From: Ascidia mentula
Lineage: Eukaryota > Chordata > Ascidiacea > Phlebobranchia > Ascidiidae
DNA: 64,000 nt
Assembly (NCBI GenBank): GCA_947561715.1
Contig: OX387205.1
Coordinates: 10,607,001-10,671,000 of the forward strand
Direction: 5' to 3'
A program made the position numbers and the translations under genes. Positions 13,001 to 64,000 of this stretch are shown here, piece by piece (position 1 is the stretch's first letter; every line of letters starts with the position of its first letter). Under the pieces are notes generated by a model. That model made no database searches and had not been told where the DNA came from. It was given only the letters and a program-made list of their open reading frames with translations.

Positions 13001-13710
13001 AAAGCTTATGACGGGTGGGCAAAAGTTTTTCATGGCACTTTATTTTCGAAGATTATTATCCGATTTTTTTTATTCTTAACTATTAAGGACAAAACATGTC
13101 CATTACATTAGGATCTAGTATTTTGGCCTGTATTGTTATTATATTTTCCCTTGTAGAAATTTTGTCGCAAATTATTGTTGTTTTCAGTGTTGTTGTAGTA
13201 GTTCCATATTGGCGTAAACTATGTAATCACAGAAATTAGTATGATACAATAACGCTTGTACAGCACTTAGCAGCATGTAAAGCAAAATAAACAGCTTCGT
13301 TTGTCATAATACACCGCTTTCGTGCAGCTTTTCGAGAACGTTTTGTCACGAATCATCTGAAATACTGGAACCGCATCATCACCAGTGTTTTGGAAAGCAA
13401 GCGTCCTTATCTTGTGATGTACTTCGAAGACATCATTCAGGATCCGATTGGAAGCGTTAGAAAGATGTTGGAGTTTACTCCTAATCCATTGCTGCATCCA
13501 ACGAACCTGGAAGATCGTCTCTTTTGTCTCAGTCAAGATACCACAGGTCTGCAGAAGCGAGAACACAGGAAATTGCATTTCAACCCTTTCGGTGAGGTCG
13601 TTAGGGGATTAATAAACAAGAATGTGGTAGAAATGAGAGAGGTATTGAAGAAAGCTGGTGTAGAAAACCCTTTACCTCCGTACGAAGATGATCCGGACTA
13701 CGCGCACTGA
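10085..13710 (+). CDS. WSC-domain sulfotransferase (WSCD1/2-like), type II membrane protein
   Basis: Eight exons: 10085-10233, 10392-10432, 10644-10749, 11200-11387, 11772-11961, 12209-12447, 12814-13014 and 13328-13710. Phases join without a break to give 498 residues. Residues 14-30 (MVWVCVAVATFCIIVIS) form a signal-anchor. WSC domain 1 spans about 68-152 with a GCY start and CPGN motif. A shorter WSC domain 2 starts at GCF (175). The C-terminal sulfotransferase domain has the PAPS 5'-phosphosulfate loop SYPGSGNTW (271-279) and the 3'-phosphate motif RSPYRAMMS (Arg341, Ser349). Vertebrate WSCD1/2 share this order (about 570 residues) and act in the Golgi, where sialic-acid sulfation has been reported. 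The substrate here is inferred only. The start is the first in-frame ATG after an acceptor-like site at 10042; a different first exon is possible. Confidence 0.88.
10285..10350 (-). repeat. Hammerhead-like relic, family 2, copy D
   Basis: Minus-strand reading: CTGATGAAG, a short stem (GCCT/AGGT), then AAAACGTAGG and a TTAATTGTGCC tail. The first core block of a hammerhead ribozyme is intact. The GAAA block reads AAAA, which would remove the catalytic G12, so it is probably inactive. It shares order and flanks with 21627-21713. Penelope-like and related retroelements are known to carry such motifs. Confidence 0.35.
10981..11144. repeat. Imperfect inverted repeat in WSCD-like intron 3
   Basis: Arms 10981-11024 and 11101-11144. 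The outer 16 bp (ACAAAATAGCCAATGC) and inner 16 bp (CTTCATGCTACAGACG) are exact inverse copies, separated by 12 unpaired bases in each arm. The 76-bp spacer also contains partly complementary tracts. This suggests a small foldback or MITE-like element lying wholly inside the intron. Confidence 0.7.
11490..11600 (+). repeat. Possible tRNA-derived SINE fragment
   Basis: The tract contains GCGAGTTCAAACCGCACC, which resembles a tRNA/SINE B-box (GGTTCGAATCC type). It lies in intron 4 of the WSCD-like gene. No convincing A-box or cloverleaf was found, so it is not called as a tRNA. Confidence 0.2.
12543..12598 (-). repeat. Hammerhead-like relic, family 1, copy A
   Basis: On the minus strand the tract reads CTGATGAGACC, then ATCGAAACAGTG, then a TGCAGCTC end. 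Both conserved hammerhead blocks, CUGAUGA (12588-12582) and GAAAC (12568-12564), are intact. Helix II has a mismatch and no clear NUH cleavage site was found. It shares core and tail with the copy near 45.7 kb and is arranged in inverted orientation to copy B, 74 bp further on. Confidence 0.4.
12672..12730 (+). repeat. Hammerhead-like relic, family 1, copy B (degenerate)
   Basis: Plus-strand CTGTTGAGACC, TGTCGAACTATAGTGTGTAC and CTGCAACTC line up with copy A read on the other strand. The core is mutated (CTGTTGA, GAACT), so a functional ribozyme is not expected. It sits in WSCD-like intron 6. Confidence 0.35.
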
Positions 13711-19542: not shown

Positions 19543-22500
19543 CTACAGACAGTAGTGTCGATTTTCTCGCCTCACGCATTCGTCACATTTTAGCTCGCAG
19601 CAGTAGACAAAGCGACAGTTGCACTTCTCAGTAAAAGTGTATACTTGCGTCCTGTAGCCCCGCCCGCAGCACAAATAAGAACAGCTGCCTTGTCCGGCTG
19701 TGTTCGGATCGCAACGGCGTCCAAAGGTCCCCAAACTGCCCTTGGATTTGTTCGGAGCGCAGTAAGATGGCGAAGACTGCAAGTAAACCAGGTCTTCGGG
19801 TGTCACCCTCCGCGCAGTCCGCCTTTTGCGCTCTATCGCTCTCACGCGGTTGCCTCCATGGATTCTAGTTTTCGTACGGTGGCGCGCAAGCTCAAAACCG
19901 CTTTGGAGGTGGTTTGTGGCCGCAGAATGGCGCGGAAAACGAGATCTACCACGCGTTCGAATCCTAGAGCGCATTAGGGACACGCCGTCAGCACCCGCCT
20001 GTACTCGAACCGCGTGGTCGTACTTAAACCTGAGACGTTGGCGCACTTCGACGAAACGCGGCATGATCGGCCAGCAGGTCCAAACCGTACAACTTCCAGA
20101 CAAACCGTGGCACTGGCAGTTGTTGCGCATGTTGTTTGTGATGGTCTGAAAACAATAAAAATATGTAGAGTTTGAGTTAAGTTGCATTTCACAAATGGGA
20201 AATAGGTTCTTTCGGTAACATGCTGGCCACAATATAGGAATACCTCTCTTCATTAGTTTACATTTTTATATTCAAGAAAGTAAACCTAATGCGTTTCGAA
20301 CGCACTGTTTGGTATTTACATTTTATTCGCGTTTCGTTGTTCCTTGTTCTTTTTTATTGCCAATAAATTGTCATTCTTAATTCCGACAAAAAAACTTACA
20401 AAAATTCCTCAGAGAAATACTTTCCCAGTTGCTTATAGCTGAACTTATTATGTGCTCTGGCGAGCGGTTAAAAACCTATGTCGACCGCCTTATTACCTAC
20501 ACCGGAACAGCTGTGCACCCCGACATAACCGCGGCATGAGGTACTATCTCACAACACATCTATGCGGTTTTCTTCCGTTTTAAATAGGCCGACGCTGTGC
20601 GCACACTGCTTGCACGGGTGATTTATGCTGTGTGATTGCAAAAGTTTTCTGCGATATTAGGAGGAAATAAATTACCTTTGAATCTTTAAAAAAAATTCCT
20701 CTGAAATAAGAATTCTTCTGATTAATATTTGGCCAAAAGTCTATAATGGTTTGAATGTAATTGAACTCGCGTATTACATAAGATCTACACGGATGTTGCG
20801 GTTCTTGAATTTGATTCGTATTCAGTTTTGAGTGTAAAGGTAATATTGCGAACAAATTCGCTTCGGTTCTGAAAAGATCTGTTGCTGAACTTGCGCAATT
20901 ATTTGCAGGGGGATCGACGCAATCTTAACTTTACATTCAAAACCTTTTTCGAGCAGCCAGAAATAGACAGTTTTTGGCTGCCAAGAGAAATAAGATTTTT
21001 GAGGAAGGCCCACCTACGTTTGGCACCTGTCCGTCTCCCGGCCTTTAAGGTAACCGCATTTTTCGACAAATTTGGGATTGCCATTAGTCGGTTGAGCGCG
21101 CGGTCGCCATTAGCAGGCGAGCAAATTCCTCGCGAAACTCTGTTTATAATCAGATAACAATGCGTTAAAAATGTAGTTGCATGCGGTGCCGGCAATTACC
21201 GCTTGGTGTGCACCCTTTGCATACAAGTGGGGGGCTTTACAAGAAGAAATTCATTTTGTATGTTGTTTGGCTATTACATGTGCTATCGTCAAATTATATG
21301 ATAAGCCGTATTAGACTTGTGACACTAAACTGTGACGTTGCGACATTTATTAACACATGATGAAGCCAGACGATCTCGCGAAAGTTCGTGTGTTTCAGAA
21401 AGTAAAAATCAGTCTTTTTAAACACTGCTAAACCAGTGTGCTATGTTTAGCCCACATTTTGTATAAAAAGGCCAATTTGTCGTTTTCTGTCGAATTGTGT
21501 TATCTGCAACAGATTTTTTGGGGAAAATTGTGCATACACATGTAATTTATGACAAAAAACTGTCTTGTTTTACATTTCGCGTTCCCTGTCAACTTATTCA
21601 GATCATTTCTAAGAAACTAACCGTCAGGCACAAATAAAAAGGTGATGCCCTGGTGAAGAGTGGTTGTAAAGCAGACAAAACGTCGGTTAATAAAATCTAC
21701 GCTTATTTGTGCCGTAAGATGAAATTTTTATTATGCCTGTAGCAGGGTCATATTCTTTATCCGGATTGTTCCGCCTACAGAATGCCATTGAGGCGGCGAA
21801 TACGCCACAACGGACATCACAAAGCCCTACGTTAGTCACAATACGTTATTAGTCTTTAACAACATGAGTGTTTGAAGAAATGGAGGCGTATTAATATCAA
21901 TGAATCATAAATTCGTGAATAATCAAACCACCGATTTTAAAATATATCGTTTCAAGGCGATTTTTTTGAAAAACAACTTCATGCAAAGTGTGTTTAAGCC
22001 CCGGTACGTTTGTCCCGATTTAGTATTGTTCCAAGGAAAACTAAAAATCTATGATAACCTACACAGACTGAATTATTTTACACGCAATAAAATAACCCAT
22101 GCAATTACTTGAGTGAAAGTGAGTAAGGATAATGTTATATCGTTTACGATTGACTTGTTTGACAAAAACTGTTGCATGCTGGGCTTTACTGACAAAAGGG
22201 GATATTTTGGTTATATATCCACACTTCAAACCTCAAAATATGATTTTCGTTGTTATGCGAATTAGATAATGGGCGATTTTCGTTTTGCTGGCTTCCCTTT
22301 TTTATTTGGCGGACACCGACAATTGTCCATTTTGACGATGTTATCGTTGAGGTTATGAACATTTAGATGCCCTCTTGGCGCAGGTCCGAAGTTAATAAAA
22401 TCCCGACCACCTAAAGTAGCTCTGCTGGGTATTTCATGGAAACTGAGTTAATTGTACGTCGGAAAAACAAATATACCAGTTTTGACAAGTTAAATTGCAA

Positions 22501-45000: not shown

Positions 45001-48000
45001 CTGTATTTATCCATCTATTGTTACATTCAACACAAGCGCTTGTGACGTCTGTTGAAATACTACGTCATGTTTAACTGAATAAACAACAACAATAAACTAA
45101 AATTATGCAGATTTTGCCTAAGTTTATTGCAAACAATGAGAATTTGTCGAAATCCGACAGAGGCGGATCATTACGCCACTTCAAACAAAAAACGCATCCC
45201 ATATTTAATTATTAGGTCCAAACATATAGCATTGATTGTGCAGTAAATTATGCAAAAGTACCACATGCGAAATGCAGGTACTATTGCATGGTTTCATATG
45301 AGGTTAACGACACCACAGACAAACAGACACCTCATGGTAAATCATTTACACTGCGCTGGCGTCACAACAACATTGTACGCTGTTAACCAACGATGTATGG
45401 CCAGTAACGTATAACGTACAGTTACTTCCAGGGTTTCGCTGCCTCATGATTTTACGATGCTTTAGGGCTGATGTAAGGTGTTTGCGCTGTCTCTGGTGAT
45501 AAAATCTATTCTGTGGTCGTTGGGTTTCGCAGTCGTAAGAACACATAGGACATGTACTGTGGTTGCGATGATCATTAATTCCCATGGAATTTCGCGGTCA
45601 AATTTTTTATCTTTCGTTTTCATTTTTCAAAAACACTGAGTTTTGGGCCTTAAATGCTAAAATAGCATGAAGCCTACGTAGATTGTGTGAGCTGCATATA
45701 GATGGCCACTGTTTCGACCTTTTAGGGTCTCGTCTGTACTTCTGGCATGTAATGTACTTTTGTGTGCAATGGTTTATCAAAACACAGACCAGAGTTAGTA
45801 AATAAATGGGGAAATAGTGAGTCTGGCACCAACTTTTACAGGGATTCAAAGGTTGTGTTGTGATAATGGAAAACACACATGTAATCACATGACAGGGAAA
45901 TGCATGGTTGCATGTATAACAATACAAGGCCTCGACATACTGTATAGTTGTGTGTGAAAATGATACACTTTTGTTGCAACCGTGTCAGAGGAAACGGAAT
46001 TGCATGTGACTCGAAAACGGAAAAGTTTCGGCCCTATTACTGAAGTAGGGTGCGGCTTTAATTCGGCCCATTCTTTGCATTTGATGTGAATCGAACTGTG
46101 CAACCAACAACACCACCCAAACCACAAGGGTGATATTAAAAAGAGCTATACTTTAGGTGCTATGATTACAGGTTACCTTACAATTGCTTTAGATGATTTT
46201 TTGGCTTTTTGATAACAGCACTGTCCGTTCAACGTCCACATTTCGTAACCCATATAGCCTACTTATAAAACTATACAGAATTGGTACCTCACTGTACATT
46301 TTTTACAAATTTACGTAACTTTGTCAAACTTGAGGTGTACCACCACTGCAAAAGCATCGTATTCCTATTTATTATGTAAAACGGAGAATTATTCCATTTT
46401 TTGCAGCACGCCCTGCAACATTGCATCAGTAATTACGTCAACACCCTTTCATATGATAAAAGTTACTAAGAATAGCATCCGCAACCTCGGCAAAAAATCT
46501 TGTTTCGGCAAGATCCAGTCGCGGTCAAAATGATGAGAAACAGACACTTTACGCCCCATTGCAACGCACAGATATTTTAAGACGGTGTCGACGTTTGGTT
46601 GATGCAAAATAGCAGCATGCTCTAACGCAGGAAAACCCCCAGAGCTATCACTGGGGCGTAAAGTGTCTGGTTAAGATAGCAGACCCCAGCCAGTAGCGTG
46701 CGTGCCGTTGGAGTAGATTATCAGCGTGGGCAAAAATAGCCTTCACGTAAAAGCGAATTTGTCTCAATTATCTTGCACAAACAGAGACAAAATTAGCAAA
46801 ATCTAAACCTTCGGCGTGCCCTACTTACAAACAAAGGAGAAAAATACATGCAAAGTGGGAATCGCAACCAGAAGTTGTACCTTTGAGGCATCGTGGCTGT
46901 CAGCGTGTATTTCAACTTGCTTCACCGCCAACTCGCGTCCGGTGTCGGCGTCGTACGCAAGATAAACCTTCCCGAACGCTCCGTGCCCCAGTACCTTGCC
47001 CTTGCGCCAATTGGCGGGCGCTTTTGGTGCTGTGAGGAACACAAGTAATGTTAACATACTTTCCAAGGCTTTAAATATAGATTTTATGATGTACATTTGT
47101 AGGAAAATGACAAACGTGAACATTTGTATAAAATAGGATAAATTGGATTTGGTCACTTTTGTATTCCAAAATGTCTCAGTATATGTTTTACTCCTAGTCA
47201 GTTAAAAATGAATTGTTTTAACAGTGATAAGCAGACCAAGAGATACAGAACATCTTAAACTTCTTTCCCACGACTAATTTACCAGATCCAAGGTTTGACA
47301 CACAACCAACTTTGAAAATCCATCTGTAGTGGGAAAGAAGTTTAAGATGCATCAAGTCATGATACGTTACAATCATATACCATGGATGTTACCATGGAAA
47401 ATCGGAACATGTCAGATAGCGTTGCAAAATATATTCCTATTTTTAGAAGACACACACATATTTATGCTGCAATGGAAATATATGCTTACATTTGACAAGG
47501 TGGGATATTAGTTGACCGCCCTGATCCACCGTCGTTACGTCACTGGCCGTTCGTCGGTGTCTTCCCGCGCTTGCTGGACTCGAACCTTGACACAGTAAAA
47601 AAATAACTTTCTCGTGACGTCATGTAAGTCGGTAATTGCCAGTTTCCTATGATTTACCAGCAGTTTAACTGGGTATAATGCAAAGTGAATAATTGGTCTA
47701 CAGCGTGGCGCTTATTTTGAGGGAGACCGTTGTCCGGAACGTCAGTAAACGCACAAAAAGTATGTTGCAGTTGGAATGTCGGCCTTGCAGGCTGAAAAAG
47801 TTGCACAAAATTGTTTGTTGCTCCACGAACATTCGCCCACAGAGAATCGATATGAGTTATTTGAAGTTTCAAATATCCCTCAGCAACGCAAGAAAATACT
47901 TTTTGTTTAGGTCAAATTCGGTGTTATGAACCATATGATATTTGAAAATCGCACGGACCCATATGACTAAAAACGTGAGAATACGACATATGACTAATAT

Positions 48001-53337: not shown

Positions 53338-54648
53338 CTATACAATTCTTTTAGCAGACCCCCACAGTATATATATAACAGCACCGATTAAATTTACAAT
53401 ACCCATGTACAAAAACACAAAGCTCCAACTATCTGTAGCATTTAGGATATAGCCAGTAATATAAATTCCAACAAAGCTTGGAATACAGCCAACTGCATTT
53501 GAAACCCCAAAAACAGACCCAGAGTACTTCGGCGTCAAATCTTGAGGATTCACCAGCACACCACTGTTATGAAAAGTCTGCAGAGAAACAGCCAAGCCTG
53601 CACATATAAGTGCCGAAATGAATGTTCTGCAAAATGGTAGAAGAATACCAAACACAGCAGTTCCACCCATTGCTATAATCTGCATAGTTTTTCGTGTAAA
53701 GGTGGTTGAATATTTGGATTTAATCATATTCTCGCTTAGCCAGCCTCCAAGAATACTAGCTGGAATTGACATGGACCATGGCACAACATTATATATCCAC
53801 CCTTTTTCACCCGGAAAGTTGTCATGGAAAAATGTTGGCAGCCACGATAACAAAATATAGTAGCAGTTATTCATACAGAAATGTGCTCCCATAAAAGACC
53901 ACACACATCGCTGTGAATAAATAAACTTCCACGGAATGCTTTCTGGCTTGGTGCTAGGTGGTTGTGTATATACCATGCTTTCAATTGAAATAACTTTATG
54001 CTTTGGTCTTTCAGCTAATGACCGTACCACATATGTCAAAAGAAGTCCGGATATCCCAGTGACATAAAATGTCTGCTGCCATCCATGATGCTCAAGGATG
54101 ATGGATCCGATTCCGCCACAAACAAGAGATCCAAAGTTGGCAGCAGCTGTCACTATACCGGATGGCAAAGACCTTTTCGTTTCACAAATTCGCTGACCCA
54201 GAAGACTCATCATCGATGGATAATGCACTCCTTGAGACACCCCCAAAAGTACCCTTGATACCATTAAAAGAAACATTGTGTTTACATATGGTGATGATAT
54301 GGCAGCAATATTTGGGGTGAAAAATGTTAAAAAGCTCCATAAAAGTGATGACATCCATAAAACTCTGTCACCACCTATTTTATCAGCCATGTAGCCACCA
54401 AGAATTTGCGTTGTGATGTACCCCCAGAAAAATGAACCCATTACTGCACCAAGATCAGCTTTATTCCAGCCAAATTCTTTGGCCATAGCGGTTGCACAGA
54501 CAGGCATGGCCAACCTGGCCGCAAACAAGGTTGCCGTGAGAACAAAAAGAAGCACCGTCCACAGTTTTCTCTCATAACTATTCCAATGATTGCTTGCATC
54601 TATACCAGTTTTTACTTTATGGGTTTCTTTGTCACTATAAATATTCAT
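53338..54648 (-). CDS. SLC17A9: Vesicular nucleotide transporter-like MFS protein (SLC17A9 type)
   Basis: One uninterrupted minus-strand frame of 436 residues with its first ATG at 54648 and TAG at 53340-53338, close to the length of vertebrate SLC17A9. It has about twelve hydrophobic segments. The conserved features are FAARLAMPVCATAMAKEFGW after the first segment, FFWGY in segment 2, the MFS loop GGYMADKIGGDR, GVSQGVHYP, WLPTFF followed by KGWIYNVVPW, and NPQDL near the end, all as in SLC17 organic-anion transporters and closest to SLC17A9. That protein loads ATP and other nucleotides into secretory vesicles, driven by membrane potential. The frame stays open upstream without another ATG. 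An acceptor (TTGACAG) just 5' suggests a non-coding first exon. The lack of introns contrasts with its neighbours and might reflect retroposition. Confidence 0.9.
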   Translation of the reverse strand: MNIYSDKETHKVKTGIDASNHWNSYERKLWTVLLFVLTATLFAARLAMPVCATAMAKEFGWNKADLGAVMGSFFWGYITTQILGGYMADKIGGDRVLWMSSLLWSFLTFFTPNIAAISSPYVNTMFLLMVSRVLLGVSQGVHYPSMMSLLGQRICETKRSLPSGIVTAAANFGSLVCGGIGSIILEHHGWQQTFYVTGISGLLLTYVVRSLAERPKHKVISIESMVYTQPPSTKPESIPWKFIYSQRCVWSFMGAHFCMNNCYYILLSWLPTFFHDNFPGEKGWIYNVVPWSMSIPASILGGWLSENMIKSKYSTTFTRKTMQIIAMGGTAVFGILLPFCRTFISALICAGLAVSLQTFHNSGVLVNPQDLTPKYSGSVFGVSNAVGCIPSFVGIYITGYILNATDSWSFVFLYMGIVNLIGAVIYILWGSAKRIV

Positions 54649-55428
54649 TTTCAACAGCAACCACCTACAGCCTTTAAGCGTGGTTAAATCCAAAAGTGTG
54701 ACTGAATCCCTCTCAGTACTTTGTATTTTCCATCAATTCAACATTATGCAGAAACATTGAACTGTCAACACAAACTACATTCTTCAGCAAACACATGCAA
54801 AAACAATAGACTTACTTTTTAAAATATATGTATTCTCTGGCTTTTCTAAGCGTGGCTACAGTAGAGCTGGGGTTCATGCGCTCCTTCGCTGCAACAGTTT
54901 GCAAACTCGGAAAAACCTAATATAAAAACACAGCAAAAAAAATACTTTTTTTCTGTCTGCTTTGAATGCCAATACGTGTTGACTATTTACCGTGCGATAA
55001 CGTCACTTTTATGCTTAGCCATCCGTATCGTTTATTTTCCAGCCAGTCAAAGACCAAATAACAAGCAATATTACAAAAATTATAAAGCCACATGGCATTT
55101 TTTGCATTGCCACAGGCTTCGTCATAAAAAATTTTTTACAATGTTAATCATCTCCGTGAAGTTCAAGATAATGAATGTAAATTTTTGCTGTGCAGTTCTT
55201 TGACCTCATTAAATCATACGAGTGTCGTGTACATGTACTAGTTATCAATCTTTATACGGCTCGAATTTCGTTCGCAAAACATTTTATGTAAACAGGGCTA
55301 GTGTAGCAAATCCGCTAAAAGAATTCTGGTTTCTGTGTTTGGCATGAAAGTTTTATCAGCACAACCAGACAAACAAAATAAAGGGTTTTAATTTTTAAGA
55401 ACAATATCCAATACGAATCTGAAGGTAA
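54649..55428. other. 5' flank of the SLC17A9-like gene
   Basis: A donor-like site (AAAAG|TAAGTC on the minus strand near 54816) pairs with the acceptor near 54767 only if a very short intron exists, so the 5' UTR structure is unclear. No other gene was seen. Confidence 0.3.
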
Positions 55429-57501
55429 ATAGCACCATAGAATACTAAAACATGGAATGGAAACTCCGCTGAAAGTGCGCCGTCACGCATGAGTAACACT
55501 TTACGCGAAATGAAAAATGCATTGGGTTAAATGCGATTTTGGTGTTTTTTAAGGGGCTTAAAAACCCATTAAATAGAACAAAATTTAAAACTTTTTTGAA
55601 GTGATAGGAAGTTTGGTCCCTCGTCTTTTGAAATATGTGGATGATTTTGAATAAATCGTGTCGCATCATCTTTTAAGGCGATTTGCTGTCTACTGCCTTT
55701 TGGGTCAAACTATAAACAAATAATTGCGCGCTTTTGCTGTTTGCAAGCAGTGGGAGGCTAAATCGAGTAATATTATCAACTACTATGCTTGTTATGTAAA
55801 ATCAACTACTTGCTTATTATGTTTTTTTTCTAGGACAGTATCTCTGCACACAGTAATGCGATTGTTTGGGAATATTTATTTTGCAAAAACAGGGCATTTG
55901 ACAAACAGTTGACAAACGATAGTATGACTGCTTTTTTCAGTATCTTGATGAAGATGGAGATGAAGATATTATAATGAGCCAAATTATTAAAATCAGTTGA
56001 TATCAGGAAATACCTCACCAACACCATGTTCATACTGCTGAGTGCAAATGTTGTCAGTAAAGTCCAACACAAAACAACATTTTAGTGCATAATATGGGTT
56101 TGAAAAAGCTAAGCCCTGACAAAATATTTGTTGATTGCTTGCAAATACTCAAGGGCAGTGGGAATACTTCCAATATAAACCAACTATAATTTGTTTTTAA
56201 GTGTTTGCATACGAGCAAATTCTGAAAACTTTCATCTTTTTCTTCAACATGACATGTTTCCTCAGAAGCATTTTAATACATATCTAAATCAAATTCTGTT
56301 GTGTTTTACTTAAAAATAATCTGAGAAGAAAAAAAATGACAAGTGAAAAAGGTTGTTAATATATTAAGGTCCAATTTTGCTGAAACAAAAGGCAATTATG
56401 TTTAGTTTAACAAAACATACATATTTTCAACTGTGTCATGAGCATTCAACCAAATGTTATGATAAGAGTAAAAAAAATACTTCTGTTATGTGTGCAATAG
56501 TTTGACAAAAATAATTTCCATCAAATTTGTTTTCTTCTCAGGGATATCGGACTAATCAACACTTAAAAGGCAAACTTTCGGACAAAAATGCCAATATGCA
56601 ACCAAATATTTACAATGAAATCAAATAGAAAACTCAGTGATGTGTGGGAAAAATGTATAAGGTAGATTACTAGTACAAAAAAGCAAGTTCATTAATATTC
56701 ACAGAGCATCGGCTCATATGTGGCATGAATTGCTCAAAACCAATGGAATATAAAAAACGACACAAGAATTTATTTGATTATGTCAATATGTTTTAGATAG
56801 TTACCACTATTTATTTATTATTTAATATTATTTGCATAAAAGATGAAAAACGGCCAGATTTAAGTATGGTTAACCAAGTAAATACAATCTTTAAAATTAA
56901 GCAGCTAAATTTGGCCCTATCTTATCTGGTTTACAAAGGCTACAATCTGACATTTTGGACCAAAAACTACTTCATGTAGTACTGCACTATCTGTCCAACA
57001 TATGTCTTTACAAAAAGAGGAGCTATGAAACATTTTGATACATACCCAATAATGACTGCAAAAATGTGACCTCTGGGTTCAGACTGTTTTGTTCAAATAT
57101 TAGGTTTCTGAATCCCATGATTGCTTTTTAGGCAGATACGCAAATCTAAAACATTACGTCATCACTTGAATGACGTAATTACATGTCTTACGTCATCTTT
57201 GAGGTTGACGCGATGACGTATTAACATATTTTTAGTCAGTAAGGTGACTTGTAACAGACGGTTAAAAAGTGTATTAGAGCGCGTCATAATTAAAATCATC
57301 CACATATTTTAAAAGATTAAGGATGAAACTACTTGAATTACATTTAAATAAATTCTTATGGTTACATTAACTTGGAGTTTTTCGCCGCCGAAAAACGCCA
57401 AAATCGCATTTAACCCAATGCATTTTTCATTTTGCGTAAAGTGTTACTCATGCGTGACGAAAAGAGTTTCCATTCCATGTTTTAGTATTCTATGATAGCA
57501 C
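55429..57501. mobile_element. Transposable element with long terminal inverted repeats and 7-bp target duplication
   Basis: Element 55436-57494 (2059 bp) is flanked by ATAGCAC on both sides (55429-55435, 57495-57501). Both ends begin CATAGAATACTAAAACATGG when read inward. Similarity between the ends continues for roughly 250 bp with gaps, for example CGTCACGCATGAGTAACACT and AAATATGTGGATGATTTT in both. No transposase frame was seen, so it is probably non-autonomous. A third copy of the same end starts at 63725. Confidence 0.85.
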
Positions 57502-59260: not shown

Positions 59261-59322
59261 AATGCAATTTCACCACAGGGTACAAATTAAACACAGAGTG
59301 CGAAATGAGTATTTTGTTACAC

Positions 59323-60454
59323 GGAAATCACTAGAACCCAGCCTCTGTGTTAAAACCAACTCCAGATTTACGTCACAATTGTGCGTCACTATCGTGCGTG
59401 TTGCCTCACAAACGACATTGTTTGCATTGTTTGAATCAATGACTAAATTTGCTGAGGACGTAAGTTGTGTATGCATTGGCCCTTAGGTGAAGCAAAGTTG
59501 AAGTCAGAAAAGTAAGCATTAGCACTAAAATGATTTAAATGTAAGAATTTGCATTGTTTATATTTTCTCTCAATTGCAGGATGAATTTCTCTCATTGTAA
59601 TATGGCTAATGCCAATATTGTATATTGGATGGGAGAGCAAAACGTTAGTTTTTTTAGTTTTTGATGATAATTCAAATTTTTTGGTAATGTGTGCGTTTCG
59701 TAGAAAACAAAACGAAAAGCTGACGAACATGTAAGTCTTTATTTTAATTTTTTTTGCAATATGACAATATCAAGTGTAAATTACAACATTTATGCAAAGG
59801 AGATAAGCAGAAAACGTAAAAGGCTGCCTGGGCCAAGGTTTGTTTGGGACATTGGTACATTAATTAATAATGTTTTGACCACTGCATGTGTTGCCTTTAA
59901 AGGTATCTTTCCAGGCAGCAGTTTCAGAAAAAGCAGAGGTGATTTGTTTTAAACTGACTTTAATTGTGTTCATCTCAGTTTTTTGCATTTTTTTGGCAGT
60001 GAAGGACTTATTTCAGCAACAGCGAGGTAAGGGTAATTTTGTGGTAAGTCAAACTGCAACAATATTGTGATTTCGAATACTTCTTAGATGGTTGAACCAC
60101 AAAACGTGGAAAGACTACCAGGTATATACAAGTTTAACAACCTATTTAAATTTAAAACAATACCTTCTCACATTGTTGACATTTCTTTATTGTTATGCAG
60201 GACCGCAAAAGGAATGCAGAGGTAGTGTGTACTATATCCATTACTGCCATAATGCAAAAATAATGTGTAATTAAAAATCTATTTATTTTGTTTTTAGAAG
60301 GAAAACTCACAAAATAATTTAGTAAGTATTGAATAAAACCTGTTACATAATCCTTTACATTACACTGTTTTATTTTCAGGATGACAGCGCACCAAAAAAA
60401 GGAGTAAGTATTGAATAAAACATGTTGCACATATCTTTGCATTACACTGTTTTA
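59323..60454 (+). repeat. Left inverted arm of the foldback element
   Basis: 1132 bp, inverse copy of 62576-63707 with no indels by coordinate pairing and identical translations in every shared open frame. It includes nine micro-exons read on the plus strand. It ends in the middle of what would be the next intron, after ACACTGTTTTAT. Confidence 0.9.
59439..60403 (+). CDS. Micro-exon gene in the left arm (lacks an evident end)
   Basis: Nine candidate exons join in one frame: 59439-59459, 59580-59596, 59704-59730, 59915-59938, 60000-60026, 60088-60121, 60201-60221, 60298-60321 and 60380-60403. Lengths are 21, 17, 27, 24, 27, 34, 21, 24 and 24 nt; introns are 58-184 nt with GT and AG ends. It starts with an ATG (MTKFAED). 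The exons then encode a hydrophilic, Lys/Gln/Asn-rich chain including QQFQKKQ, RWLNHKTWKDYQ, DRKRNAE, KENSQNNL and DDSAPKKG. The total to this point is 73 codons. No acceptor follows before the PHD-like frame, so this copy looks truncated at the arm edge. No family is recognised. Frame continuity across nine tiny exons is the main evidence. Confidence 0.55.
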
Positions 60455-60458
60455 TGTT

Positions 60459-60578
60459 ACTGACCCCTTTCAACTGGACTGGATTGAATGCACTCGATGC
60501 AAACAGTGGTTTCATATCAAATGTGTTGCTACTTCACTTGAAAATGCTAAAGAAAAATATTTTGTTTGTCCACTGTAG
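60459..60578 (+). CDS. PHD-finger-like partial open frame
   Basis: A 39-codon frame ending at TAG 60576-60578 reads DWIECTRCKQWFHIKC and ends YFVCPL. It matches the second half of a PHD finger (W-I-x-C-x2-C-x2-W-[FY]-H-x2-C ... Y-x-V-C). The first zinc-binding pair would lie upstream and the last cysteine is missing. There is no splice acceptor between the end of the arm and this frame, so it looks like a truncated exon. PHD fingers of this type occur at the ends of several transposase and retroelement proteins, and also in host chromatin readers. Confidence 0.6.
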   Translation, partial: TDPFQLDWIECTRCKQWFHIKCVATSLENAKEKYFVCPL

Positions 60579-60635
60579 ATCAATGGTTGCATCCTAATTA
60601 TTCATCCAAATAAATATGGTCAACCAACCAAATAA

Positions 60636-61116
60636 ATCTAGGTAAATGCCAATTGAGTGTGGTTAACCCAAAAAGCCACTTTTTGCTTCAAATTTAAATA
60701 CTGACCAGTGCAATTGACCCAATTTGGTTTATGGCAATGGGTCAAATTCCCCACGAATAATTAGCATTGGTTGGTGAGGGTTAACCGAATCAGTGGAAAC
60801 ACTGAAGCGCTAAATACCAATTGGTTACTTTTTATGCGAAGTGTTTTGGACAAACTAATTTAAAGAATTACCAATTTTATCCACAAAAATTATGTTTTAT
60901 TTTTTGAAATGTAAATAATGAAAATCTAGGTAAATGCCAATTGAGTGTGGTTAACCCAAAAAGCCACTTTTTGCTTCAAATTTAAATACTGACCAGTGCA
61001 ATTGACCCAATTTGGTTTTTGGCAATGGGTCAAATTCCCCACGAATAATTAGCATTGGTTGGTGAGGGTTAACCGAATCAGTGGAAACACTGAAGCGCTA
61101 AATACCAATTGGTTAT
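60636..61116 (+). repeat. Direct duplication of about 193 bp inside the foldback element
   Basis: 60636-60828 and 60924-61116 are near-identical (offset 288 bp; for example TTTATGG versus TTTTTGG). Each copy begins TCTAGGTAAATGCCAATTG and ends ACCAATTGGTTA, and has GGTTAACCC and GGGTTAACC as internal inverted motifs. This suggests a nested small element that was itself duplicated. Confidence 0.85.
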
Positions 61117-61390
61117 AAAAAATATCCCAGTTTTGTAGGGCTACAGGCGAGGGCCTTCTGGGGAAAAAAAAGGCCAACGGCCATATATGAGGAACCCCCT
61201 GGGTGTGGCAGAAATCCTCATTTTATTTTGATTATTTTATATTTTTTCACATATTTGTCTGCTCGCTCTAGAAGCCACCCACAACAGTAACAAACTGACA
61301 AAAAAAACACTAACAAAAATTTTCTCTTTATTTTTCTGAAAGAAAAACACACATTTACCCATAGGAAGATATGTTAATAAACACTCACAT

Positions 61391-63591
61391 TTATGTGCTC
61401 TCACTAACAGACACCTTCAAAACAAAATAAAACAGTGTAGTGCAAAGATATGTGCAACAGGTTTTATTCAATACTTACTCCTTTTTTTGGTGCGCCGTCA
61501 TTCTGAAAATAAAACATTGTAATGCAAAGATATGTGCAACATGTTTTATTCAATACTTACTCCTTTTTTTGGTGCGCTGTCATCCTGAAAAAAAAACAGT
61601 GTAATGCAAAGATATGTGCAACATGTTTTATTCAATACTTACTCCTTTTTTTGGTGCGCTGTCATCCTGAAAAAAAAACAGTGTAATGCAAAGATATGTG
61701 TAACATGTTTTATTCAATACTTACTCCTTTTTTTGGTGCGCTGTCATCCTGAAAATAAAACAGTGTAATGCAAAGATATGTGTAACATGTTTTATTCAAT
61801 ACTTACTCCTTTTTTTGGTGCGCTGTCATCCTGAAAAAAAAACAGTGTAATGCAAAGATATGTGTAACATGTTTTATTCAATACTTACTCCTTTTTTTGG
61901 TGCGCTGTCATCCTGAAAATAAAACAGTGTAATGCAAAGATATGTGTAACATGTTTTATTCAATACTTACTCCTTTTTTTGGTGCGCTGTCATCCTGAAA
62001 ATAAAACAGTGTAATGCAAAGATATGTGTAACATGTTTTATTCAATACTTACTCCTTTTTTTGGTGCGCTGTCATCCTGAAAATAAAACAGTGTAATGCA
62101 AAGATATGTGTAACATGTTTTATTCAATACTTACTCCTTTTTTTGGTGCGCTGTCATCCTGAAAATAAAACAGTGTAATGCAAAGATATGTGTAACATGT
62201 TTTATTCAATACTTACTCCTTTTTTTGGTGCGCTGTCATCCTGAAAATAAAACAGTGTAATGCAAAGATATGTGTAACATGTTTTATTCAATACTTACTC
62301 CTTTTTTTGGTGCGCTGTCATCCTGAAAATAAAACAGTGTAATGCAAAGATATGTGTAACATGTTTTATTCAATACTTACTCCTTTTTTTGGTGCGCTGT
62401 CATCCTGAAAATAAAACAGTGTAATGCAAAGATATGTGCAACATGTTTTATTCAATACTTACTCCTTTTTTTGGTGCGCTGTCATCCTGAAAATAAAACA
62501 GTGTAATGCAAAGATATGTGCAACATGTTTTATTCAATACTTACTCCTTTTTTTGGTGCGCTGTCATCCTGAAAATAAAACAGTGTAATGCAAAGATATG
62601 TGCAACATGTTTTATTCAATACTTACTCCTTTTTTTGGTGCGCTGTCATCCTGAAAATAAAACAGTGTAATGTAAAGGATTATGTAACAGGTTTTATTCA
62701 ATACTTACTAAATTATTTTGTGAGTTTTCCTTCTAAAAACAAAATAAATAGATTTTTAATTACACATTATTTTTGCATTATGGCAGTAATGGATATAGTA
62801 CACACTACCTCTGCATTCCTTTTGCGGTCCTGCATAACAATAAAGAAATGTCAACAATGTGAGAAGGTATTGTTTTAAATTTAAATAGGTTGTTAAACTT
62901 GTATATACCTGGTAGTCTTTCCACGTTTTGTGGTTCAACCATCTAAGAAGTATTCGAAATCACAATATTGTTGCAGTTTGACTTACCACAAAATTACCCT
63001 TACCTCGCTGTTGCTGAAATAAGTCCTTCACTGCCAAAAAAATGCAAAAAACTGAGATGAACACAATTAAAGTCAGTTTAAAACAAATCACCTCTGCTTT
63101 TTCTGAAACTGCTGCCTGGAAAGATACCTTTAAAGGCAACACATGCAGTGGTCAAAACATTATTAATTAATGTACCAATGTCCCAAACAAACCTTGGCCC
63201 AGGCAGCCTTTTACGTTTTCTGCTTATCTCCTTTGCATAAATGTTGTAATTTACACTTGATATTGTCATATTGCAAAAAAAATTAAAATAAAGACTTACA
63301 TGTTCGTCAGCTTTTCGTTTTGTTTTCTACGAAACGCACACATTACCAAAAAATTTGAATTATCATCAAAAACTAAAAAAACTAACGTTTTGCTCTCCCA
63401 TCCAATATACAATATTGGCATTAGCCATATTACAATGAGAGAAATTCATCCTGCAATTGAGAGAAAATATAAACAATGCAAATTCTTACATTTAAATCAT
63501 TTTAGTGCTAATGCTTACTTTTCTGACTTCAACTTTGCTTCACCTAAGGGCCAATGCATACACAACTTACGTCCTCAGCAAATTTAGTCAT
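61391..63591 (-). CDS. Micro-exon gene of the right arm, with the DDSAPKKG micro-exon repeated 15 times
   Basis: Minus-strand mirror of the left-arm gene. Exons: 63591-63571, 63450-63434, 63326-63300, 63115-63092, 63030-63004, 62942-62909, 62829-62809 and 62732-62709. Then come fifteen 24-nt exons every 82 bp from 62650-62627 down to 61502-61479. Each repeated exon is bounded by TTTTCAG and GTAAGT and encodes DDSAPKKG (the last copy reads NDGAPKKG). After the array an acceptor (TTTTGAAG, ending 61415) leads in phase to a terminal exon 61414-61391 coding VSVSEST and TAA. If all exons are used the protein has about 192 residues, 120 of them from the array. It is charged and repetitive with no signal peptide or known domain. 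Because every array exon is a multiple of three, any subset could be skipped without losing frame. Confidence 0.55.
61423..62705 (-). repeat. Tandem array of 82-bp units, each one complete micro-exon plus intron
   Basis: The marker TGCAAAG recurs at 61441, 61523, 61605, 61687, 61769, 61851 and onward, exactly 82 bp apart, with 15 copies of the exon core. Read on the minus strand each unit is acceptor TTTTCAG, a 24-nt exon, donor GTAAGTATTG, and the rest of a 58-nt intron. Units differ at a few sites only: three have a pure pyrimidine tract before the CAG (GTTTTTTTTTCAG) and the others GTTTTATTTTCAG, and GTTGCACA alternates with GTTACACA. Each intron contains AATAAA. There are no spacers, so this is not a CRISPR array. 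Confidence 0.95.
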
Positions 63592-63707
63592 TGATTCAAA
63601 CAATGCAAACAATGTCGTTTGTGAGGCAACACGCACGATAGTGACGCACAATTGTGACGTAAATCTGGAGTTGGTTTTAACACAGAGGCTGGGTTCTAGT
63701 GATTTCC
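62576..63707 (-). repeat. Right inverted arm of the foldback element
   Basis: Inverse copy of 59323-60454. It contains the first array unit next to the arm, then micro-exons 8 to 1 on the minus strand, and ends ...GTTCTAGTGATTTCC at 63707, next to the 9-bp target duplication. Confidence 0.9.
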
Positions 63708-63724
63708 TTGTTACACACTACAAC

Positions 63725-64000
63725 CATAGAATACTAAAACATGGAATGGAAACTCTTTTCGTCACGCATGAGTAACACTTTACGCAAAATGAAAAATGCA
63801 TTGGGTTAAATGCGATTTTGGCGTTTTTCGGCGGGGAAAAACTCTAAGTTAATGTAACCACAGGAATTCATTTAAAAGAAATTCAAGTAGTTCTATCTTT
63901 AATCTTTTAAAATATGTGGATGATTTTAATTATGACGCGCTATAATACACTTTTTACCCGTGTGTCACAAGTCACCGAACTGACTGAAAAATTGTTAATA
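63725..64000 (+). mobile_element. End of a second copy of the 55.4-kb element, cut by the window edge
   Basis: Starts CATAGAATACTAAAACATGG and follows, on the plus strand, the right terminal repeat of the 55436-57494 element read inward (57494 to about 57225), including TGAAAAATGCATTGGGTTAA and AATTATGACGCGCT. It begins 8 bp after the foldback element's target duplication and runs off the window. Confidence 0.85.

Follow-up and report, generated by a model that had tools for sequence, protein, structure and literature searches.

Tandem repeats near the transposase gene are a known theme among Mutator-like elements (MULEs). Rehavkus, a MULE-related group with hosts among arthropods and annelids, has one open reading frame (ORF), a PHD finger, terminal inverted repeats (TIRs) of 26-400 bp, a 9-bp target-site duplication and a mini-satellite before its 3' TIR (PMC6446971). 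Phantom MULEs, listed from Tunicata among other hosts, encode 1 or 2 ORFs, and those of aphids carry a mini-satellite behind the transposase ORF (PMC6446971). The parts of PMC6446971 on which we draw do not present the Rehavkus minisatellite as exons, describe no micro-exon content for Phantom, and contain no account of a micro-exon array. We analysed a 64,000-nucleotide stretch of the ascidian Ascidia mentula (contig OX387205.1, positions 10,607,001 to 10,671,000; hereafter the window), in which a 4,385-bp element carries an array of 82-bp units, each with a candidate 24-nt exon on the minus strand. We consider it likely that the array represents the amplified portion of a genuine gene made up of many micro-exons, which a group of animal MULEs carries as its second gene.

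The locus resembles Rehavkus in its 9-bp duplication, in the association of a PHD finger with the transposase, and in the tandem repeat that separates the transposase gene from one of the TIRs. Like the Rehavkus minisatellite, the array of the family to which the window element belongs (family A) lies between the 3' end of the PHD gene and the TIR. It differs in its 1,133-bp ends and in a second, convergent, predicted spliced gene, compared with the 26-400 bp and single ORF of Rehavkus. Phantom is comparable as a MULE group that includes tunicate hosts and has, in aphids, a mini-satellite after the transposase.

In spider flagelliform silk and LPA kringle IV-2, homogenised units of exon plus intron stand in tandem, differ in copy number and undergo concerted evolution. 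Those units are far larger than ours, belong to ordinary host genes and are not known to include micro-exons. Davis et al. reportedly described tandem 81-base repeated exons in a schistosome in 1988. The micro-exon genes (MEGs) of schistosomes are host genes in transposon-rich regions, with short symmetric exons that encode secreted proteins and introns of 100 to almost 5000 bp (PMC8293314, PMC10526429, PMC4015677). An initial annotation of the window had named these genes as the closest concept. The parallel holds for the many short symmetric exons, skippable without loss of frame (as predicted here), and for tandem exon repeats, but not for the long introns, since ours measure 58-81 nt and the gene lies within a DNA transposon. 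It is an analogy only.

Maize MuDR (mudrA/mudrB) and Arabidopsis VANDAL (VANA/VANC) are MULEs with a transposase gene and an accessory gene. The VANC accessory protein has tandem peptide motifs and its target DNA lies in tandem repeats (PMC5735166). The portions of that paper used here do not describe the plant accessory genes as micro-exon arrays. Among the entries listed by a literature search that covered few subscription papers, we saw no prior account of a tandem micro-exon array in a transposon.

The array and the element that carries it

Tandem Repeats Finder, run on the window, gave a single strong tandem array at 61424-62709 (period 82, 15.7 copies, 98% matches). It comprises 15 minus-strand units, each with the acceptor TTTTxTTTTCAG, a 24-nt exon and the donor GTAAGT. 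Fourteen of the exons read GATGACAGCGCACCAAAAAAAGGA (DDSAPKKG) and the final one AATGACGGCGCACCAAAAAAAGGA (NDGAPKKG), and all 14 introns that separate them are 58 nt long. The consensus intron contains an in-frame stop (GTA AGT ATT GAA TAA); thus the array could be coding only with splicing, and read-through would halt immediately. The best acceptor-exon-donor combination of the 82-bp unit enclosed 24 nt and beat 500 of 500 dinucleotide shuffles. By our reading, most units differed from the consensus at 0-3 bases and the last unit at 5.

The array lies in an element at 59323-63707 whose two inverted ends, 1,133 bp each, do not differ from one another and which is bordered by a target duplication of 9 bp. 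Because the identical ends are flanked by the same 9 bp, we conclude that this segment was inserted as one element. Its features are as follows.

59314..59322, no strand: left target-site duplication TTGTTACAC, the identical 9 bp immediately outside both inverted ends
59323..63707, no strand: whole non-autonomous MULE copy, 4,385 bp, with inverted ends starting GGAAATCACTAGAACCC and the 9-bp duplication
59323..60455, plus strand: left terminal inverted repeat of 1,133 bp, the same in sequence as its right counterpart
60456..60578, plus strand: 3' remnant of the transposase gene (last PHD-finger part and stop), convergent to the micro-exon gene (PF00628, E 2.2e-8, profile positions 12-45 of 47)
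62575..63707, minus strand: right terminal inverted repeat, 1,133 bp, by sequence comparison
63708..63716, no strand: right target-site duplication TTGTTACAC, the identical 9 bp immediately outside both inverted ends

The 5' half of the micro-exon gene is present in both inverted ends. That on the left holds an inverted copy of the 5' exons, a diverged unit (E9, below) and one array unit, stops in the intron that follows this unit, and is joined there to the last part of the PHD-finger gene. The window copy retains only this PHD remnant of the transposase gene and is non-autonomous. Since 5' exons of the gene itself stand inverted to each other in its two ends (59323-60455 and 62575-63707), a read-through RNA could form a long hairpin. 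Mu killer of maize reportedly gives such a hairpin RNA.

The genome searched comprised 195.8 Mb in 79 contigs. The array region recurs with 9 units at C52:9497443-9498249 (copy C52a, locus L015) and once, decayed, with 1 unit at C52:9605782 (copy C52b, locus L016), and the unit numbers across family A copies are 15, 9 and 1. In C52a, two ORFs on the strand opposite to the array gene (L015 7150-9012) carry Ulp1 protease (PF02902), PHD (PF00628) and SWIM (PF04434) matches, all of which exceed the curated cut-offs. Seven database proteins matched these ORFs with 40-60% identity. Five of the seven were scanned; all had Ulp1, with PHD below the Pfam cut-off, and two also had SWIM. The PHD exon, whole or in part, was matched 33 further times in the genome, and at 9 of these places a PF10551 MULE domain lay 1.7-2.9 kb upstream on the same strand. 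The array gene is antisense to the transposase gene. The marks of a MULE, a target-site duplication of 8-10 bp (9 bp here), terminal inverted repeats and PF10551 in relatives, were all found, and because of PF10551 in relatives and the 9-bp duplication we assign the element to the MULEs.

These results bear on the initial annotation, which had placed fifteen exactly repeating, phase-keeping micro-exon units inside a transposon, with an in-frame terminal exon and stop just past them. All 15 units with acceptor, 24-nt exon and GTAAGT were recovered on the minus strand at 61424-62709, and the terminal exon is present at 61414-61391 (VSVSEST*). As an observation on the sequence, this is confirmed. 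The transposon is confirmed by the 4,385-bp element with its 1,133-bp identical ends and 9-bp duplication, and by relatives that encode a MULE transposase. The units do repeat, but not exactly, given the 0-3 bases (5 in the last unit) that separate them from the consensus.

Several repeats occur in and around the copies. Between the two convergent genes of the window element, 60634-60827 and 60922-61115 are 194-bp direct copies, 99% alike, and these are present in C52a and C52b too. A 276-bp repeat (57219-57494 and 63725-64000) stands inverted on either side of the element, beyond the target duplication; it is held by about 38 of 41 scored matches, with 220 candidates genome-wide and 40 scored. 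The 194-bp direct repeats with the 276-bp flanking repeat were rejected as element ends, because the target duplication sets the ends at 59323 and 63707. By eye, ORFs resembling a reverse transcriptase and a retroelement polyprotein adjoin the C52a transposase gene (L015:9815-11401 and L077). Near C52b, L016:5758-5883 is the 126-bp end of a second MULE family that occurs in inverted pairs genome-wide, five of which, in our reading, bracket a PF10551 match. The micro-exon gene was rejected as cargo of this second family, which abuts C52b, because by our reading the outer end of that family faces the gene.

The predicted second gene

A splice-site chain search, with weights and consensus frequencies that we set, was used to look for exons around the array. 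It demands a donor after every exon, so the terminal exon lies outside its test. Upstream of the array it found five exons in one frame (24, 27, 34, 21 and 24 nt) with a score of 63.7. We compared this score with 268 overlapping control stretches of equal length, taken from elsewhere in the window; none attained it (nearest 63.1), although these controls may include real genes. A laxer search over 63560-61300 gave 25 exons and a score of 361.6 on the array strand versus 17.0 on the opposite strand, and in C52a the scores were 244.5 versus 24.5. The predicted exons, in minus-strand order, are listed below.

63571..63591, minus strand: exon 1 of the second gene native to the family (MTKFAED, then GTAAGT), common to L051; its use in the window copy is doubtful
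63519..63543, minus strand: predicted exon E1b, 25 nt (chain search, copy alignment)
63387..63450, minus strand: predicted exon E2, 64 nt, containing a candidate start ATG (chain search, copy alignment)
63300..63326, minus strand: predicted exon E3, 27 nt (chain search, copy alignment)
63193..63230, minus strand: tentative exon E4, 38 nt by phase, with weak splice sites; the chain search took another exon, of 17 nt, between E3 and E5
63092..63115, minus strand: predicted exon E5, 24 nt (chain search)
63004..63030, minus strand: predicted exon E6, 27 nt (chain search); length and phase the same in families C (L061) and D (L066)
62909..62942, minus strand: predicted exon E7, 34 nt (chain search); length and phase the same in families C (L061, L058) and D (L066)
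62809..62829, minus strand: predicted exon E8, 21 nt, DRKRNAE (chain search)
62709..62732, minus strand: predicted exon E9, 24 nt, KENSQNNL, a diverged array unit adjoining the array upstream (chain search)
61479..62650, minus strand: tandem 24-nt exons, 15 in number at 82-bp spacing, DDSAPKKG x14 and NDGAPKKG (Tandem Repeats Finder, pattern, chain search, unit scan)
61391..61414, minus strand: terminal exon VSVSEST*, in frame to its stop (VSVEST* in C52a), read by eye
61315..61335, minus strand: alternative exon from 61335 (KNKEKIF...), a second possible terminal exon; its end is the donor picked by the chain search

Homology links the intron of E9 to those of the array (0 of 1000 shuffles as good), and E9 itself shares 14 of 24 bases with the array exon (24 of 5000 shuffles as good); E9 is therefore taken to be a diverged array unit. 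The use of exon 1 in the window copy is doubtful because the next intron would be 27 nt. In an array-free relative (L051:60-560), the second gene starts MTKFAED and, in our reading, seemingly splices to an exon that reads ESPVN.... The micro-exon gene may thus be a replacement in family A for another second gene that once occupied the same position.

Alignments of the three family A copies show six substitutions in E1b and E2, every one at a third codon position of the frame predicted; one of them creates a stop in C52b. All three indels inside predicted exons are of 3 nt (E2 twice, E11 once), a count from alignments read by eye that leaves aside the C52b deletion removing the end of E9 and its donor.

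Capture of a host gene, as in Pack-MULEs, is not favoured, since the genome has just four matches to the gene's 5' half, all within these elements, and two of the four are the two arms of the window element. A six-frame protein search found no donor gene for such a capture; it is an insensitive search, because it barely detected the gene itself. It gave four matches to the gene's own copies (E 0.14-0.25) and one other (E 0.58), which to judge by its reading frames belongs to a different protein.

Arrays in other MULE families of the genome

Tandem Repeats Finder was run on 27 PHD-transposase loci (L050-L076) with about 1.5 kb on either side. Arrays with a splice-flanked exon were found at nine of them (L058, L061, L062, L063, L064, L066, L067, L068 and L074). 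Two others (L053 and L069) have short arrays without such an exon, and the remaining 16 have no array with a period of at least 50. All nine arrays are antisense to the PHD gene and lie past its 3' end, as in family A. The unit of family C is 99 bp long, and its 24-nt exon, AGGCAAGTAGAGAAGGAGGACGAT (RQVEKEDD) or AGGCAAGTACAGAAGGAGGACAAT (RQVQKEDN), stands before GTGAGT. That of family D is 104-105 bp long, with the 24-nt exon AGTCAGGCAGAGAAAGGAGCAAGT (SQAEKGAS), likewise before GTGAGT. Genome-wide, the family C exon patterns matched 35 times at 8 places (2-8 units each) and the family D patterns 47 times at 7 places (2-21 units each), with no match to the reversed patterns of either; these patterns fix the length at 24 nt, so they count units and do not test length.

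A scan of the units gave a best exon of 24 nt in all three families, with 0, 2 and 37 of 500 shuffles as good for A, C and D, respectively. Three control arrays with a period of at least 50, taken from 147.8 kb, gave best exons of 43, 38 and 13 nt. When the anchors were loosened, 24 nt was measured for 29 of 30 exons in family C and one, in L068, was cut. The loose-anchor script was only partly usable for family D, where it set 12 of 17 exons at 18 nt, its donor pattern admitting GCAAGT, and the other five at 24. Family D units are spaced by 103-105 bp while all 17 exons fit 24 nt, a fit that fixes the length and is not an independent test. Indels confined to the introns of the arrays were too few for proof.

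The introns of family A resemble neither those of C nor those of D (760 and 538 of 1000 shuffles did as well), and neither do the exons. The C and D exons are alike (14 of 24 bases; 44 of 5000 shuffles as good), and their intron interiors are not clearly so (101 of 1000). Because dissimilar units of 82, 99 and 104-105 bp all hold a 24-nt exon, we conclude that a predicted micro-exon of fixed length has been amplified repeatedly in several MULE families; this comparison carries the most weight of all our evidence. The introns of intact array units range from 58 to 81 nt. The 27-nt E6 and the 34-nt E7 keep length and phase across A, C (L061) and D (L066).

Three loci have a single 24-nt exon at the place of the array: L059 (RNEGNNDV), whose locus starts 138 nt before the exon, L071 (SQIEIEQN), where the exon is our reading and the chain search took another path, and L072 (SKIEIQQN). 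The genome has 29 matches to the 400 bp that lie behind the family C array, and the second gene is therefore widespread, with and without an array seen. The second gene of this MULE group likely had a 24-nt exon ancestrally, and that exon, together with its intron, was then amplified in families A, C and D. Past the array, families C and D have, by our reading, a 21- or 18-nt exon and an 18-nt exon (EDDQTV, EDDQTT), and then a stop-bearing terminal exon; the chain search agrees on the first of the three, that of 21 or 18 nt.

The longest array seen, with 21 family D units, lies at C67:8326490-8328611, and in it the variants SQAEKGAS and RQTEK[E/G]AS partly alternate as a higher-order repeat. 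Elsewhere in the window, host-gene exons were seen for a Wnt gene (19543-20262, minus strand) and a major facilitator transporter (53338-54729, minus strand), the Wnt exon being a sign of an animal genome. Below the curated cut-off were sulfotransferase-like (13291-13707, plus strand) and protein kinase-like (46821-47198, minus strand) exons.

Explanations of the array

In the explanation that we favour, the second gene would begin near one transposon end and run towards the MULE-SWIM-Ulp1-PHD transposase gene. A 24-nt exon would follow a 34-nt exon in it, and the 24-nt exon with its short intron would have been tandemly duplicated in several families, the arrays lengthening or shortening by recombination or slippage between units. 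Transcription would start near the TIR. Because the units are symmetric (phase 0-0), with short introns and in-frame intron stops, the pre-mRNA would be spliced unit by unit, by intron definition over 58-81-nt introns. Translation would yield a protein tail of n copies of a polar, charged 8-residue repeat. Because the units are symmetric, the frame would be kept under DNA expansion or exon skipping, and skipping of the last C52a unit, with its broken donor, would mean the loss of that unit only. The product would most likely be, by analogy, a transposon accessory protein in the sense of MuDR MURB or VANDAL VANC, with a disordered octapeptide tail tuned in length. An accessory or anti-silencing factor is our first guess at its role.

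A number of observations weigh against a real second gene. Exons E3-E8 show no exon-specific conservation among the three family A copies (5 of 160 sites variable, versus 27 of 571 in introns; Fisher p = 0.51). The last unit of C52a has the donor GTTAAG, and the chain search in C52a departs from the frame after the first array unit. C52b is decayed, with the E1b acceptor lost, the end of E9 deleted, one unit left and the terminal exon absent. Mismatches were present in 12 of the 35 family C and 6 of the 47 family D pattern matches. Several of these lie at splice sites (donors GCGAG, GTGAC, GTGAT and GTCAG, acceptor TTTTCG), and part of the C and D copies must therefore have decayed. One unit of L068 has an in-frame stop and another is cut, and one unit of L074 has a 23-nt exon, outside the loose anchors. 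The splice score of the D unit is weak by itself (37 of 500 shuffles). Past the array the chain search adds an in-frame 75-nt exon (L062, L058) and a frame-shifting 35-nt exon (L063, L066), and before it a 21-nt exon (L061, L058); the by-eye and chain-search versions of the tail in families C and D thus do not fully agree. The start of the gene in the window copy is not clear-cut. A protein search gave no homologue of the second gene (none of six candidates scored), and no Pfam domain was found in it.

The initial annotation had named, as evidence against itself, copies in which splice sites or exon length decay as fast as the rest of the unit. The close copies give the annotation no support (p = 0.51). 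The deeper families speak for it, in that the 24-nt exon with its splice sites recurs in units of 82, 99 and 104-105 bp, but decayed copies lose donors or acceptors. On sequence grounds, both the transposon and the frame-preserving micro-exon array that it described are supported.

In another explanation, which overlaps with ours on the origin of the arrays, ancestral families had a functional second gene and the present arrays are non-expressed satellites homogenised by recombination. The low copy number of family A, the decay of C52b, L067, L068 and L074, and the disrupted transposases (in L015, reverse-transcriptase-like ORFs lie directly upstream of the SWIM-Ulp1-PHD ORFs) are in agreement with such a dead relic. 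We nevertheless regard it as somewhat unlikely. The 1,133-bp ends of the window element are identical and hence imply a recent event, and the C and D arrays of L062, L063 and L064, with 7 units examined in each, have intact splice sites.

An ordinary transposon minisatellite, of the kind found next to the 3' ends of Rehavkus and aphid Phantom, would have at most a structural or protein-binding role, and its exon-like content would be a by-product of a duplicated, decaying gene. The lack of exon-specific conservation among the close copies would be expected from it, and both the position of the array and the PHD finger match the mini-satellites placed before the Rehavkus 3' TIR and after the aphid Phantom transposase (PMC6446971). 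Dissimilar units (A compared with C and D), however, hold an exon of equal length on the same strand, single-unit relatives (L059, L072) keep the 24-nt exon, E6 and E7 keep length and phase, and the three control arrays give no such exon. We therefore judge a plain minisatellite decidedly improbable.

It is very improbable that the array acts mainly as DNA, its intron motifs being binding sites for an element-encoded anti-silencing protein, as in VANC/VANDAL of Arabidopsis, and the peptide repeat being secondary: VANC targets are often fast-changing tandem repeats, some of them in the VANC21 and VANB21 introns, VANC variable regions often have tandem peptide motifs (PMC5735166), and the broad layout of a MULE with a second gene and a tandem repeat within it is shared, but the protein and Pfam searches gave no sequence link to VANC and DNA binding needs no fixed 24-nt exon.

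The favoured explanation, an amplified part of a real second gene, may be carried one step further, although we think this extension rather improbable. The array would be a self-renewing device that expands by one 24-nt exon plus intron at a time, and in which unequal exchange alters the octapeptide count of an accessory protein and the count of intron DNA motifs together. Gene and target would be the same array and may co-evolve as a VANC-like anti-silencing pair, with the unit sequence turning over and the exon length fixed.

The phenomenon appears to be real and broader than the initial annotation saw, namely a predicted transposon-borne gene family with recurrent tandem arrays of 24-nt micro-exons. 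The "minisatellites" of Rehavkus and aphid Phantom are worth re-reading as possible exon arrays. With 1 to 21 near-identical micro-exons, the arrays offer a natural, replicated test bed for the behaviour of the spliceosome on tandem 24-nt exons, and for the diversification of MULE accessory genes. If the favoured explanation is true, there would be a class of transposon genes that changes protein length by duplication of a whole exon and intron, with the frame safe, and such genes would have arisen or been renewed several times within one genome.

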